A stretch of DNA of 64,000 bases. Source: Hericium rajendrae (lineage: Eukaryota; Basidiomycota; Agaricomycetes; Russulales; Hericiaceae). The notes under the pieces were generated by a model. It was not told the origin of the DNA. It did not search any database and worked only from the letters and a program-made list of their open reading frames with translations. The translations under genes and the position numbers were made by a program. The stretch is from assembly GCA_033439255.1 (NCBI GenBank), contig CM065881.1:2852001-2916000 (forward strand), given 5' to 3'. Below, piece after piece: positions 27,330-62,226 of the stretch (its first letter is position 1; the number at the start of each line of letters is the position of its first letter).

Positions 27330-28014
27330 ATTTATGATCTATATGATGTTTTCTGTGGTATAGCAAAGGGGAATCATGACAGGTTCTATGGAAGGATCAA
27401 GGACTCGATTTGTTGAATACATAGTTTTCTTTAGCATACTTTCTATTAATTGCAAGTAGTGCTGCTCGTTTTGCTTTCATCCAATCTATGTAATTTTATC
27501 CAGTCACACAATTTAGATGTCTAGTCGACATCTAGACAGAACGATGATCTTCTGTCCGAGGTCAGCTACGGAGACTAGTCGACATCGCATCTCATCTTCT
27601 CGTTCCTTGGATTTCCTCGTCGCACTCGACACCGTCACATGATCAAAATATCTAGCGCCAAACTGGTGGGCGCTTAATGGTTGTTTCTTCCAAGCTGCTG
27701 CCACAGTTCGCCAGGTTATTACCAACTGTTTACTAGCCGCAGGGAAGTGATCCTATTCCATCAGTCTCTCGACAAGCTTATCGGAAGCGAGAACGTGATT
27801 CTGGCCCGAACACACGACTGTCTCGTTCTTAGAACATTGGTTCGATTCTTGCCAGATACTAGTGGCACGAGGCCGCCACGCCGCCACGGGCCCACGCACC
27901 CACACTATTATAAGAGGCAAGCAAAAAGGGAACCTTATGCACTTCATACCACAAGCCGCATGTTGATTGATGTTCCCATCCGCATTTCTGCGTTCATCCC
28001 GGCGGCCTGCCACC
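27330..28014. other. Intergenic; contains a small hairpin
   Basis: No gene seen. At about 27514-27534 a perfect 8-base stem (tagatgtc/gacatcta) encloses a 5-base loop. It lies about 185 bases after the protease stop and may be incidental. The last 50 bases are probably leader of the next gene and contain an upstream in-frame ATG (27970) that would extend the protein by 15 residues. Confidence 0.4.
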
Positions 28015-29673
28015 ATGTTGCCGGTGTGCACGCTTTTCCTTCCCAGACTCACATTGCGCCATGTCAGTGGCCCGTATCGCCAGCTGAGCAGGTCTGGTTC
28101 TGTCTTCCAGAATGTGTGCAGCGTAGCGCCACATTCATTCCGCCAGCAGCTCGCATTGTCGAGGCCCGCAACACCGTTTGCTGAGCGTATCCGCTGGAAA
28201 GTCACCGTTGGGCGCCACATTTGGGTAGGGTTCATCTTTTATCGCGTATGCATCTTTGGCTACTGACATGTTTCTCTGGTGATTCTGTAGTTTGCAGCGG
28301 CGGTATCGTTCTCTGTGTTCGCTGCCGCTGCGTATTACGCAAACATGCAGACTGAGTTTTGGCTGCGCAACCTACAAGACCATCCACAATTCAAAAATGC
28401 CCTCCGTCCTCGATCTGTCGATCTGTCCTATGTATCCTTTCGGTGGCTGCACCACGTCAGTTCTATGCACTAAACAGATATCGGTAGTCACTGATGGCAC
28501 GTCTCTCGAAGCGTTTACAACTGTGGTTCGACAATACGAGCACCCGGCTCGTGAAGCAGAGCTATACGCTTTTGTATCGCTACCACCTAGTGAAGTCCAT
28601 TCAGATATTCTTGAACCACCACTTGAAGGGGAGATTGCGGCCCTGGACCTCGACCATCTTCGGCACGAGCCTTCTCGTGCTCGTCATCGCGAGGCGTTGG
28701 CCTGGGGCTCGCCGCTTCTTTGTGCACGACCCGCTCTCAGGGAGACGGTACACGCTTTTTACCAGCATATTCAGGTTGGAGGATTTCTTGCCCTGATGAA
28801 TAGATAGGCCATCCTGACATGACTATGTGTCACAGCTTCAAGTCATTCATGGGCTTGCTTTTGGCCTGGTGGACGGTGGACAATTTCGGTGTGTTCTTTA
28901 CTACATCTTTCGTGTGGTTCTTTCTCATTTTCACTGAGGTAGCTGGCACTTTCGTCCACGAGTCGCGGATAAAGGACGGCCGTCCGGGCTCTTTCCCCGA
29001 AGTAAATGCAGCCTACCACTTCTTGGCTTTCTACATTTCAGGTACACCAGCTCCTCCAGGCGCCGCAATATCCATCACGCTCGCAAATGTGACGCTTATT
29101 AGCTTGCTTTCCCAGCTGGCCTGTTCTCCGGCCTTATCTCCCACATCGTGGCCGCGAGGATTCTATATCCTGCCGTGATATCCCGATTCCCCCTCGTGAA
29201 ATATATCCCGAGAATGTTTAGACGATACCCTGCAGCAAGTGGCGGGAAGCCCACCGGTATACCCATCTCCGGAGGTGGCGCTGGCGCCGTCTATGCCTGT
29301 GTCACATGGGAGGCATGCACTTTTCCCGACGGCGTGTTAACCTTTCAGGAAGGCTACCCTAATGTGTGGTACCTGTCATCGACGGCCGCCGTCACAATGC
29401 TGATCGCATGGAACCTGCTTGGCTTGAAGAGGGGTTGGAGGTACGTCCTAACCTTCCGTGCTGGGTGGCTTTCATTGACTTCTGGACGTCCTGCGAAGGC
29501 GCTTTAACCACGTGGCGAACCTTGCGGGAGCTGCATTCGGCGCAATCTATGCGTCGTATGGATTGCGGTTTTGGGACCGGATGCGGGCCGTCTATGGACC
29601 AGGACCGAGAACCAAGGCCTCATCGTCGCTCTCACCAAGTTCTTTATTTCGAGAAGTGAAGAAGAACGACTAG
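28015..29673 (+). CDS. Rhomboid-family pseudoprotease (catalytic residues lost)
   Basis: Seven exons: 28015-28224, 28291-28431, 28488-28774, 28836-28888, 28943-29041, 29116-29440 and 29499-29673, giving 429 aa in one clean frame. The ATG at 28015 has an ideal context (gccaccATG). The N-terminus is basic and hydroxyl-rich (RLTLRHVSGPYRQLSRS), like a mitochondrial presequence. The order of membrane segments and the sequence HDPLSGRRYTLFTSIF match the intact rhomboid at 35094-36669, as do intron positions and phases. All four functional positions differ from that paralogue: the oxyanion His and Asn in FHMLIN are Gly and Ala (FMGLLLA), the catalytic Ser in GASGAIYA is Ala (GGAGAVYA), and the catalytic His in HWAHLGG is Asn (HVANLAG). 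It should keep the fold but not cleave proteins, as in iRhoms and derlins. It may regulate the active paralogue or its substrates (inferred). Confidence 0.85.
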
Positions 29674-35093: not shown

Positions 35094-36669
35094 ATGATTT
35101 GGCTTGCTCGTCTCCGGGCATGTCAGCCCCGGATCTCCCCCACCTCCCGCTCCTTCTCCTTTTCTTCCCGCCTCTGGCTCCCCCGCTCTACCCAAACTCT
35201 CAAGACTGCGCACCACAGCAGGACTATCCCGTCCTTTCGCGACCATCTAGCCCGCACAAACACGGTCCGGTCCTTTAGAGAGTCGCTAGCCTACCCTCCA
35301 ATCGGCAGACACATCCTCGTACGCGCCCCCATTTCGTCGCCTCGCAGTCCTGATTTTTGTACAGTTCGTCCTCGGCTCCTCGTGTCTCCTCTTCGGTGTC
35401 GCGGCGCACGACACAAATGTCGTTACCGCGTTCTGGGAGAAATACTTCCCCAAGATGTCGCCCGTGCTCCGATTTCATACGCCCACGACGCTAGACATCC
35501 TCCGGGCGCGCCAAGCCGTCCTCGCAGCCGTGTGTCCCTCCTTGCCCTTACATTCTCCATTTTCTCCCGCCTCACCTCCACTCTAGCGGCTCTCACAAAG
35601 CCTCAAATCCCTCGCCGACTCTCTCTCGTCCGCCCCCGCGCTTCTCAAGAGCGTCGTCCTGCACGCCAGCACCGCGCTCGCGGAGGCATACCTCAACGCG
35701 ACCGAGGGCCGCCGCGTCGGCTGGGGCATCTGCGTCGTGAACGTCTCCATCTGGCTCCTATGGCAAGTCCCGCGCCTGCGGCCCTTCATGCAGGCGCACT
35801 TCACGCACAACCCGCTCAGCGGGAAGGCGTACACGCTGTTCACGAGCATGTTCAGGTGCGTCCGCCGTGTCCGATGTCCACAAGCGTAGTCCAGACCGGG
35901 AACGGGTTTGCAGTCATGCGTCATTCTTCCATATGCTGATCAACAGCTTGGCGCTCACGAGCTTCGGTATGCATTTTTATGCCTGCCTCGTCTGAGCGAT
36001 TTGACACCCGCCGCGCAGCGTCCGCCACGACCACATGGATGCGGCAAGAACAGGCACGCTCGCACTCCGGCCTCCTCGAAGCCACCACGACCTACCACTT
36101 CCTCGCCATGTTCATCTCCGGTCCGCCCCCTCTCCTTCCCCCACTCCCTACCACTAACACCCCCCGCAGCCGGTCTCTTCTCCTCCCTCGTCTCGCACGT
36201 CGTCAGCGCGCGCCTGCGCTACCCGCGCCTGCTCGCGGCCCTCGCGGCGCCGACGCTCGCGCACCTGACCGCGGCGGTAAAGACGACGCCGATCCTGCCC
36301 TCGCTCGGCGCGAGCGGCGCGATCTACGCGACCGTGCTTGTGAGCGCGTTCGCGTTCCCGAGCGCGCAGCTCAGCCTTGTGTTCCCGCCGACGCCGGCGT
36401 TCCCGATCACGTACGGCGTCGGCGCGATGGTGCTGCTCGACTGTGTCGGCGTGCTGCGCGGGTGGCGGTGCGTGTCTTTCTTTCCTGCGGTGTTTGTGCG
36501 TGGTGCTGATTGGTTGAGTTTGGGCAGGCTGTTTGATCACTGGGCGCATTTGGGCGGCGCGCTGTTCGGAGTCGTGTATTACTGCGTGGGGCCGACGGTG
36601 TGGAACCGGCTGCGCGCGAGCCTGTTGCCGCTGGCGGGGAAGCCGAAGGAGAAGGACAAGGAGGCGTAG
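35094..36669 (+). CDS. Rhomboid intramembrane serine protease, probably mitochondrial
   Basis: Seven exons: 35094-35318, 35365-35529, 35587-35855, 35914-35966, 36019-36120, 36170-36467 and 36528-36669, giving 417 aa. The N-terminus (MIWLARLRACQPRISPTSRS) is basic, Ser/Arg-rich and free of acids, like a mitochondrial presequence. The membrane core has the oxyanion His and Asn in SFFHMLINS, the catalytic Ser in LGASGAIYA and the catalytic His in DHWAHLGGALFG, so the Ser-His dyad is intact. The best-known fungal relative is Pcp1/Rbd1 of the inner mitochondrial membrane, which processes dynamin-like Mgm1 and cytochrome c peroxidase; whether this gene is that orthologue is inferred. The length is somewhat above the yeast protein. 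Intron positions match the inactive paralogue at 28015-29673. Confidence 0.88.
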
Positions 36670-36824: not shown

Positions 36825-37437
36825 TGCGAAGTGAGCAGTCATGCGTTTTTCGGTGCGTACTTCGCGCGGGGTCGGCAGTCCACAGCACCCTCGACCAGAT
36901 CGTCCGCGTCCACTTGCGGCTGGTCACTGATTTCCCGCGAAGAAAACCCGTACGGCGCAGCGGCCCCGGGCATCATGGAAGTGCATCTACGCGCGACACC
37001 TTGAGATCGCTCACCGTACATGCATCAGGCGGAAAGCGCTCCAAGACCGCTGGGTAGAAGCACGCGGGCTACAATGCGCGCCGCTGACCTCTTAACCAAT
37101 CAGTGAACACAGACGACTTATCTAGCCCGGCCAGCTACCGATGCGAGCACCACGCGTTTTTCGGCGCGTACTCCGCCCGGGGCGGGGCAATCCACAGCAC
37201 GCAGTTCATCCCGCGTGCGGCTTCTTAGTTATGTCCGGCGAAACAAAGCCCGTACGGCGGAGCGGTCCCGGACATAATGGAAGCGCATCTACGCACAGGC
37301 CGCCCGCTGTACATACCAGGCGGATGCGCTCTAAGGCCGCTGGGTGGAAGCACACAGGCTACAGTGCGCGCCGCTGACCTCTTAACCAATCAGTGAGCAC
37401 ATACAATCTATATATTCCCGCCAGCTGTACGACCCGC
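36825..37437 (+). repeat. Diverged tandem repeat, two units of about 300-317 bp
   Basis: Unit 1 (36825-37141) and unit 2 (37142-37437) share long stretches, including gcgtttttcggygcgtac near the start, cccgtacggcg in the middle and ctcttaaccaatcagtga near the end. They differ by perhaps a fifth of positions, so the duplication is not recent. No open frame is conserved between the units. Each contains a CCAAT-type sequence. Confidence 0.8.
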
Positions 37438-43155: not shown

Positions 43156-45989
<2,834 letters not shown>

Positions 45990-59380: not shown

Positions 59381-62226
59381 CTACCAGTAATCCAGCGTCC
59401 GATACGGCACGACCCCAGGCCCGCGCTTCTTCCTCTCCGCCTCCCACCGCGCGACCCACGCCGCGATCTTGGCGCGGCTGCCTTCGCTGTCGACGTTCAC
59501 CGTCGCGACGATGCGCGCCCAGTCAAGCGAGAGCGCGAAGCACGTGAGCTCGAAGAACGAGCTGTGCTCCGAGTACGGCACGCCGTACAGCTGGTGCGCG
59601 GGCGTGCTGTTGCGCATCGTGCGCAGGTGCGCGTGCGTGAACTCGCGGTGCGGCGTGCGCGCGACGATGTTCGCGACCGAGGGCGCGGTGGTGCCGACGG
59701 GCGGGGTATACCTGTCGAGACGCGTGAGCGAGGTGAATGGACCGGAAGGGCAAAAGGCACTGACGTCCAGCCGGTCGGACGGAATGCGAGAACCTTGCTC
59801 CAGTGTCCTTGCCATCGCTGGATGTACTCCTTGATCGTGTCCGAATTGATTATGCTGAGAGGGACGACATGCACGCCGGCCGCGAAGGGATCCTTGATCA
59901 GCATGGCGTGCAGCTCTGGGTCATCTTGACAGCGGAGAATGGCCGCTTTGCGCGAGTCGCAATATACTTTGGTCTGGAGCGCTCTAGCGATGGCTGTAGG
60001 GGTATATGAGTACAGCAGACAAGACATCCAAGTGTGGAGAACGGACCTTTGACGACGCGCTCCTTTCCAATAGAGTATGTCCTGTGTGGCGGGCCTCAAT
60101 CTCAAAGGCGCGAAGAAGATCCTACTGCGATATATACGCACCCGACTACGACAAGAGTCCTGTCGATCTTCTGGACTCCACAGTCTTCTATCTTGGGCAC
60201 AACGGTGAAAAAGCTGCTCACGCCTTTGGGCGTCCCATTCTGGCCAGAGACTATCCGCTTTGCAAGATCAGCACAAGCCGAGATCACCTGGGCCTGCGAC
60301 GGGAAACAATACTACGACAATCGACCCGTAAGCTCATAGCCACCGAAAATGCGCGGATAGTATACCTTCGGGTTTAGATACGTTGTATCCAGATATATGC
60401 AGTCAATGCGTTTGCCTTTGACAGCGGGATGCAGCACATGGTGCGGCGACGCTCGAAAGTCCCCACAGTGCAGATAGCGGAAGAGCCGCTTCGACCCGAC
60501 GAAGTGCGACTTGTATGCGCTATCGCCCGCGTCGACGGTCTGCAGCCCCTCGAACAGAAATAAGGACGACCCCGGACCTGCAAGATCGTGAATAAGCAAG
60601 GGCGTAATGTAGGTGGATAGAAACTGACAGTGATTTGCTTCGATGAGGGTCACTTGGACGCCGCCCGTGTTGGGAATCGTCGTAGGCACGTCCATGGGCA
60701 GCGGATATACCCATGTGCGGTCGACACGAAGCATGTGGATGATCAGGTTTGCGGTGCCCTCTGATTGGATTTTCGCGTCAGTGTGAGGCGTAAGGTGTCA
60801 GTATAAGCAAAGATGAATCTCGAGTCAGTATAAAGTATAAGCACAGCAGAGCGCGGACTGACCTGAGCAGTATATTGGACCATTCTTCCAATTGGAAGAC
60901 AAGTTCGTGTAATGGTCCGAATGCGCGTGTCTAGCCATAAAACACCGTGAATCAACCACGCACAATCCACTACAGCAGAGCCCTCACGTTAAGAAATATG
61001 CAGTAACGCCAGGAATCGCGCCATAGCGAAACGCATCGACCGCGATCGGCATGCCGGTCATGACCTTATAGAACGGCGCCTTCCTGCGCCCGCCATTGTT
61101 CTTCGTCGGCCGGAAGCTGCGGTCTTCCGCGATGGTGGCTTCTTTCCAGGCCTCATTTTCCTTGTGAGAGGACATGAGGACCGAGAATGCGTTTGCATCG
61201 CCTTTGGTGATAGGTATAGAAGTCGTCGCGTCGGGAGGTTGTGGAGAACCTTCGTCCTTGACGGGGAACGACGCGAGCCCGTCGGCGCAATTGTTGATGT
61301 GCTCCTGGATTTCCTACAGCAAAGAATGAGGAATTGCGTACTGCAGTTTTGGCCGACCGACGTACGAAAACGAAGAGGCCCGTGAGCGCCTTATCGCACA
61401 GAGGACATGCCTCGAGCCGCTGGCTGGCGTTGCTGTCCCCGGTGAGATCTATGTCAATGGAGTCTTCGACTTCATCTTCATCCGCGCGGGAGGTATCTGT
61501 CCCGCCTTCGGCAGGCGCGAGCTCGTCGTCGCCCATGCCCCATTCGTTGTCAATTTCCAAGATGTCATCCTGGCTGTCCGGAGGGCCAGCGGGGCTCCCC
61601 GTCTTCGATCCAGATGCTGCACAACCCGGCACAGGAGTATTGGACGATGTCGTGGATCCAGAAGTCGGTTGTAGCGTTGACGAGCTGCCACCCTCAGAAG
61701 ACGTAGACGACTTGGAAGGCCCAAATTTCGACTCGAGAAGCAGAAACGGCTTTCCAAACGTTTCGCCCCCGCCGGGCTCCCGCTTCACCGCATTGATCTC
61801 TCGAAGCGCAGCAGCCAGGTTCAAGTTCTGTTCGTTCTGTTCATTCCAGTACTTCGACGCGCCCGGCCGCGGTATTCGATCCGGCTCGCGTTTGGTCTTC
61901 TTGTTGGCCGGCGCACACTTCGCGCGCGGCACGTCGTTCACCTCTACGATCTCAACATCGCTCGACGAGCCGGCCCTGCGCTTGCGCGTCGGCGGGGGGT
62001 CGTCGTCGTCCGACGAGTCTATGACGATAATGTCCGCGTCCGGAGGCGGTGCGGCGCGCTGCTTGCCCTTCGCGTTGGCAGCGGGCTTGGTCGCTTTCCG
62101 CTGCGCTAGCGACGTACTGATGCTTGGCTTGCGTTTCTTGTCTGATTGCGGGCCTTGGGACAAAAACGCGTCTAGTGTTCCAGCTCTGGTGCCGGCGGGT
62201 CGAGACTTGGAGAAACTTGGGGCCAT
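59381..62226 (-). CDS. SNM1/PSO2-type DNA cross-link repair nuclease
   Basis: Nine exons: 62226-61366, 61313-60988, 60930-60863, 60760-60629, 60577-60366, 60311-60142, 60081-60047, 59993-59765 and 59711-59381, giving 787 aa. Residues 1-280 are disordered, with acidic runs, basic nuclear signals (TRKRRAG) and near residue 17 a DAFLSQ patch. A UBZ4-type zinc finger follows (CPLCDKALTGL, then HINNC), which binds ubiquitin at damage sites. The metallo-beta-lactamase/beta-CASP fold shows TAYFLTHAHSDHY, LIEANHC, FRYLHCGDFRASP and YLDTTYLNPK; the DRMBL end includes VVVGTYSIGKERV and VPYSEHSSFFEL. The family is a 5' exonuclease that resolves interstrand cross-links (yeast Pso2/Snm1, human DCLRE1A). 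All metal ligands seen are intact. It is longer than yeast Pso2 because of the leader. Confidence 0.95.

Follow-up and report, generated by a model that had tools for sequence, protein, structure and literature searches.

An intact rhomboid gene of Hericium rajendrae that has lost its active site and was constrained for most of its history

Does a rhomboid gene from which the active site has disappeared encode a protein that is kept for something other than cutting, or is it a duplicate that is decaying into a pseudogene? Here, we address this question for gene A, which lies in a 64,000-nt stretch of the Hericium rajendrae genome (the window; coordinates are positions in it unless a contig is named), and for its relatives in the 46.8 Mb on 19 contigs that we searched. 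We find that A is a rhomboid without an active site whose sequence was constrained through most of its past, as supported by alignment, an intact gene and a codon model. The gene keeps most of the conserved framework while its active site is lost, and A is probably a non-cutting helper, perhaps in mitochondria. The features on which the argument draws are the following:

27908 to 27914, plus strand: TTATAAG, a candidate TATA-like element about 107 nt 5' of the start codon of A
28015 to 29673, plus strand: gene A, rhomboid pseudoprotease, seven exons, 429 amino acids (gene model and a PF01694 match below the cut-off)
28015 to 28224, plus strand: exon 1 of A, basic N-terminus with the first acidic residue at 57, presequence-like
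28291 to 28431, plus strand: exon 2 of A, first hydrophobic segment, putatively the extra N-terminal transmembrane segment of the 1+6 type
28488 to 28774, plus strand: exon 3 of A, linker, first core helix and L1-like loop HDPLSGRRYTLFTSIF
28836 to 28888, plus strand: exon 4 of A, oxyanion helix, with F214, G219 and A223 in the H145, H150 and N154 columns
28943 to 29041, plus strand: exon 5 of A (gene model)
29116 to 29440, plus strand: exon 6 of A, nucleophile helix, with GGAG for GxSG and A319 in the Ser column
29499 to 29673, plus strand: exon 7 of A, HVANLAG, with N379 in the catalytic His column; stop codon TAG
35094 to 36669, plus strand: gene B, active-looking paralogue, seven exons, 417 amino acids, H221, H226, N230, S320 and H378 kept
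Contig C4, 2496516 to 2498226 (L026, 2516 to 4226): gene C, active-looking third family member, 456 amino acids

In the gene model of A, the frame is neither interrupted by a stop nor shifted, and every splice site is intact. All seven exons are open and all introns are GT..AG, which bears out an earlier sequence-only reading of this locus in which the frame was described as intact over seven exons and 429 codons. Translation starts at 28015 in the context GCCACCATG; another ATG, at 27970, lies in frame 5' of this start in a poor context and would add 15 residues if used. Introns in A and B are about 45 to 75 nt long. Intron 4 of A (28889 to 28942) has 54 nt, is in frame and free of stops, and its retention would add the hydrophobic stretch VFFTTSFVWFFLIFTEV after the oxyanion helix; because the same intron has 52 nt in B and 56 nt in C, this may be chance. 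For exon 5, an acceptor 4 nt upstream of the modelled one was rejected since it breaks the frame, while the modelled acceptor restores both the frame and the phase found in B.

Several lines of evidence show that the active-site residues are replaced in A. First, the core sequences of A, B and C, of the Pcp1-like protein from the same genome and of Escherichia coli GlpG were aligned with MAFFT in three modes, and each alignment has 16 columns that do not vary among the four proteins other than A. At GlpG H145, H150, N154, S201 and H254, which we take to be the catalytic and active-site residues, A has F214, G219, A223, A319 and N379. The sequence-only reading had named the last four of these losses and proposed an alignment with GlpG, in which they do fall on H150, N154, S201 and H254; the loss in the H145 column comes in addition, as do paralogue C and the Pcp1-like gene. 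The codons concerned are GGC (28852 to 28854), GCC (28864 to 28866), GCT (29280 to 29282) and AAC (29518 to 29520) for G219, A223, A319 and N379 of A, and CAT, AAC, AGC and CAT for H226, N230, S320 and H378 of B. Thus, the Ser-His dyad with GxSG and the oxyanion His and Asn by which an active rhomboid protease (S54) is recognised are absent from A. Second, the losses are concentrated in the active site. Among the other invariant columns, only W125 (L182, or a gap in one MAFFT mode) and D243 (N375) are changed, and F135, T140, S185, G199, G202, Y205, P219, G257 and G261 are kept. A therefore keeps none of the five active-site columns versus nine of the eleven others (hypergeometric p 0.005, with the H145 column having joined the active-site set after the alignment was viewed); with only the four positions named earlier, the counts are 0/4 versus 9/12 and p is about 0.02. 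Because the set of columns is small, we regard this test as suggestive rather than crushing. For the other proteins, the columns invariant in the remaining three serve as controls, of which B keeps 16 of 18, C 16 of 19 and the Pcp1-like protein 16 of 25. A also keeps 27 or 28 of the 43 columns common to B, C and the Pcp1-like protein (15 or 16 changed), and differs little from B in its L1-like loop HDPLSGRRYTLFTSIF and in the stretch YHFLAFYISAGLFSGLISH. Third, a splice error does not account for the losses. A scan of all forward frames of the A locus, introns included and read through stops, found no H...N, GxSG or AH[LIV][GA]G, and the same scan, which misses a motif split over a splice junction, found all three at the B locus; a corrected splice model that gives back Ser and His, looked for in this way, did not turn up. 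Judging from these residues, A can presumably no longer cleave.

A, B and C belong to one gene family. The intron phases 0,0,2,1,1,2 are common to all three genes, and five of the six introns lie in the same alignment column; it is from these shared columns, with the second intron matching by phase only in a gappy stretch, that we conclude on a single family. The earlier statement that intron positions and phases match between A and B thus holds for six phases and five positions, but not for the second position. Identity is 36% between A and B and 31% between A and C in the three-way alignment (34% between A and B in the pairwise one), and 40% between B and C. C, with the motifs YHFWLN, GASG and HYAHLGG, is on the contig of A and B, with its end about 382 kb ahead of A and about 389 kb ahead of B. 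When the genome was searched with A, the 13 exon-level matches fell on A (seven), B (three) and C (three), and searches with B and with C gave the same three genes; these searches score best candidates only, and remoter copies could escape them. A matches the rhomboid family PF01694 with an E-value of 1.9e-4 and 22.1 bits, just below the cut-off of 22.6, an exon of B matches it above the cut-off in the genome scan, and all three aligned family members match it; A is also a homologue of B by sequence and intron phases. The genome further encodes a separate Pcp1-like protein of 322 amino acids on contig C6, a rhomboid on contig C1 that was seen as exon fragments with HAGIIHILLNM, VGASG and AAHLGG, and a DER1 match on contig C3. 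Compared to the Pcp1-like protein, A, B and C have a longer linker preceding the core and additional residues ahead of the nucleophile helix, with more of the latter in C than in A or B. Since the genome still contains an active-looking relative of A within the family as well as the separate Pcp1-like gene, the chemistry does not depend on A.

The most serious alternative, which we nevertheless consider unlikely, is that A is a duplicate under relaxed constraint that is becoming a pseudogene and lost its catalytic residues first, with the frame still unbroken. A codon model on a star tree of A, B and C, fitted to 322 block codons and to 186 core codons, speaks against it. The free omega on the A branch is 0.039 or 0.138 for the blocks and 0.11 for the core, and omega_A = 1 is rejected with 2dlnL of 13.3 and 12.4 for the blocks and 9.4 and 9.2 for the core; because synonymous sites are saturated and some fitted B or C branch lengths are at their bound, the value of omega is rough, and what counts is that 1 is rejected. 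A single omega fits as well as a separate one for A, with lnL of −3586.38 versus −3586.29 for the blocks and −1990.68 under both models for the core. Neutral evolution over the whole branch of A is thus rejected, which is a statement about the average constraint on that branch. Moreover, the four catalytic codons have undergone at least six base changes, as counted from the genetic code, and yet the reading frame is open throughout, the splice sites are sound and the start context is intact. In neutral simulations from the B coding sequence, 61 of 300 copies were stop-free at 0.2 substitutions per codon, which a duplicate released only recently would resemble, and 4, 1 and 0 of 300 were stop-free at 0.5, 1.0 and 1.5. 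By these counts, A did not evolve freely over most of its past, but a recent release is possible. A recent relaxation is possible because A is the fastest-evolving copy: in a five-sequence tree, in which the grouping of A with B has a support of only 53%, the branch of A is the longest in the family (1.42, versus 0.79 for C and 0.36 for B). Of the 93 core positions at which B and C agree, A keeps 54. Its GC3 of 0.65 is below the 0.85 of B, but it exceeds the 0.48 in the introns of A and the 0.47 and 0.44 in its flanks, which counts in favour of a kept gene. The long branch, the 39 changed positions and the lower GC3 all fit relaxed constraint as well. For the same reasons, the argument of the sequence-only reading that a gene in decay would not be hit at precisely these four positions was too strong, since these 39 positions changed too and the branch is the longest. 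What fares better is its reading of A as a kept gene without an active site, for which the alignment, the unbroken gene and the codon model all speak.

An N-terminus that is basic and free of acidic residues is typical of mitochondrial presequences, and Pcp1/PARL rhomboids have a 1+6 layout. Acidic residues first appear at position 57 of A, 50 of B, 49 of C and 82 of the Pcp1-like protein, after 6, 9, 7 and 11 basic residues, respectively, and a hydrophobic segment of A lies at about 69 to 87, ahead of the core. The hydrophobic moment is weak evidence for a presequence: shuffled sequences reached the amphipathic moment in 33 of 1,000 cases for A, 764 for B, 190 for C and 320 for the Pcp1-like protein. 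Pcp1/Rbd1 of yeast and PARL are mitochondrial rhomboid proteases (MEROPS S54), to which A is likened through the Pcp1-like protein of its own genome. A and this Pcp1-like protein share the rhomboid core, the basic, acid-free N-terminus and the context G..[YW]TL.TS of the L1 loop and oxyanion helix; unlike Pcp1/PARL, A lacks the Ser, the His and both oxyanion residues. A mitochondrial location of A is plausible, the acid-free basic N-terminus and the likeness to PARL/Pcp1-type rhomboids being the two points on which it rests.

A functional pseudoprotease outside mitochondria, similar to derlins or Dsc2 in the ER or Golgi, appears improbable. Such a location would agree with that of the known fungal rhomboid pseudoproteases, which work at the ER and Golgi (PMC11513148). 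However, the part of A that precedes its first hydrophobic segment is basic and acid-free, like that of the Pcp1-like protein, and in a Pfam search at E-values up to 1 A matches only PF01694 and not DER1 (PF04511), by which derlins are recognised, whereas a DER1 match of this genome sits on contig C3. That A is still an enzyme with a rearranged active site is very improbable, because S315 and H376 do lie near the lost nucleophile and histidine columns in sequence but the nucleophile, the general base and both oxyanion residues are replaced, and we know of no rhomboid with a rearranged active site of that sort.

Other searches did not add to this picture. AlphaFold, given a two-row alignment each, returned models without confidence (pLDDT 34.5 for A and 37.3 for B). 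A sequence search of the PDB with an A/B/C profile gave one match, an antibody with an E-value of 0.36, and with the Pcp1-like protein three, the best with an E-value of 0.96 and none a rhomboid. In prokaryote and viral, i.e., non-fungal, collections, 59, 74, 109 and 51 pattern matches were found, none of which was confirmed by tblastn. Pfam scans of 27 distinct open stretches in the window, picked by size or place, revealed no functional link. These scans recognised a Nup85 gene, an aspartyl protease gene, an AAA ATPase stretch at 44709 to 45989 with AAA, AAA_lid_3 and Vps4_C matches, and a match to DRMBL, a DNA repair metallo-beta-lactamase domain, at 59500 to 60267 on the minus strand. An imperfect direct repeat with a period of about 300 nt lies 3' of B at 36940 to 37426 (53 nt at 87% and 101 nt at 85%).

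Altogether, we consider it likely, though well short of certain, that A is a duplication-born, PARL/Pcp1-like rhomboid pseudoprotease, probably mitochondrial, that holds helices without cutting them. We suggest that A arose by duplication within the family, three members of which (A, B and C) came to light, and that its probable destination after import is the mitochondrial inner membrane. There, it would most likely hold transmembrane helices, uncut, in the substrate site of the rhomboid fold, and would thereby compete with, or serve as an adaptor to, the active-looking B and C or the Pcp1-like protease. The small side chains introduced by the His to Gly, Asn to Ala and Ser to Ala replacements could allow helices 2, 4 and 6 to pack more closely. 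A role of A in binding or routing substrates is proposed by analogy with other pseudo-rhomboids.

Rhomboid pseudoproteases are already known and include iRhoms, derlins, Dsc2, TimRhom and an inactive PARL-type plastid rhomboid. iRhoms are pseudoproteases related to active rhomboids; they function in the animal secretory pathway and carry a large extra domain, whereas A, likened to them by description, has no Pfam family beyond PF01694. The sequence-only reading had named iRhoms and derlins as precedents; both are indeed pseudo-rhomboids, iRhoms being named in PMC7065720, but the list is wider, as PMC5187411 (TimRhom) and PMC7065720 (the Arabidopsis plastid rhomboid) indicate. By the description given in the former, TimRhom I and II of Trypanosoma brucei are mitochondrial, lack the Ser-His dyad, function as subunits of the inner-membrane import translocase and are not more closely related to PARL than they are to bacterial rhomboids; by contrast, the two other members found in the family of A keep their active site (PMC5187411). 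At1g74130 of Arabidopsis is, as described in the latter, an inactive PARL-type plastid rhomboid and resembles A in being PARL-type, inactive and, as is plausible for A, organellar, but it is a plant protein of the plastid (PMC7065720). Dsc2 of the yeast Golgi, as described in PMC11513148, recognises short transmembrane segments, and thinning of the membrane by its L1 loop is required for substrate degradation. Dsc2 and derlins resemble A, by that description, as fungal rhomboid pseudoproteases but belong to the Golgi and ER (PMC11513148), and derlins differ from A by their DER1 match. In the openly licensed PMC literature, searched by titles and the openings of abstracts, no fungal mitochondrial pseudo-rhomboid was found among the matches listed. 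Tentatively, A may be the first fungal mitochondrial inner-membrane pseudo-rhomboid of PARL descent, one that would gate the substrates of active family partners in a pairing like that of iRhoms and rhomboids.

Proteins of this kind could escape surveys of proteases. In a census of fungal serine proteases, which groups rhomboids as Pcp1/Rbd1, Rbd2 and ROM-1, likely inactive homologues were dismissed and proteins with two of three catalytic residues replaced were excluded (PMC5567314); because of this exclusion, genes like A would have been dropped. Pseudo-rhomboids handle substrates without cleavage. A PARL/Pcp1-like pseudoenzyme that occurs together with active-looking relatives in one genome would allow enzyme and pseudoenzyme to be compared directly, possibly in mitochondria.
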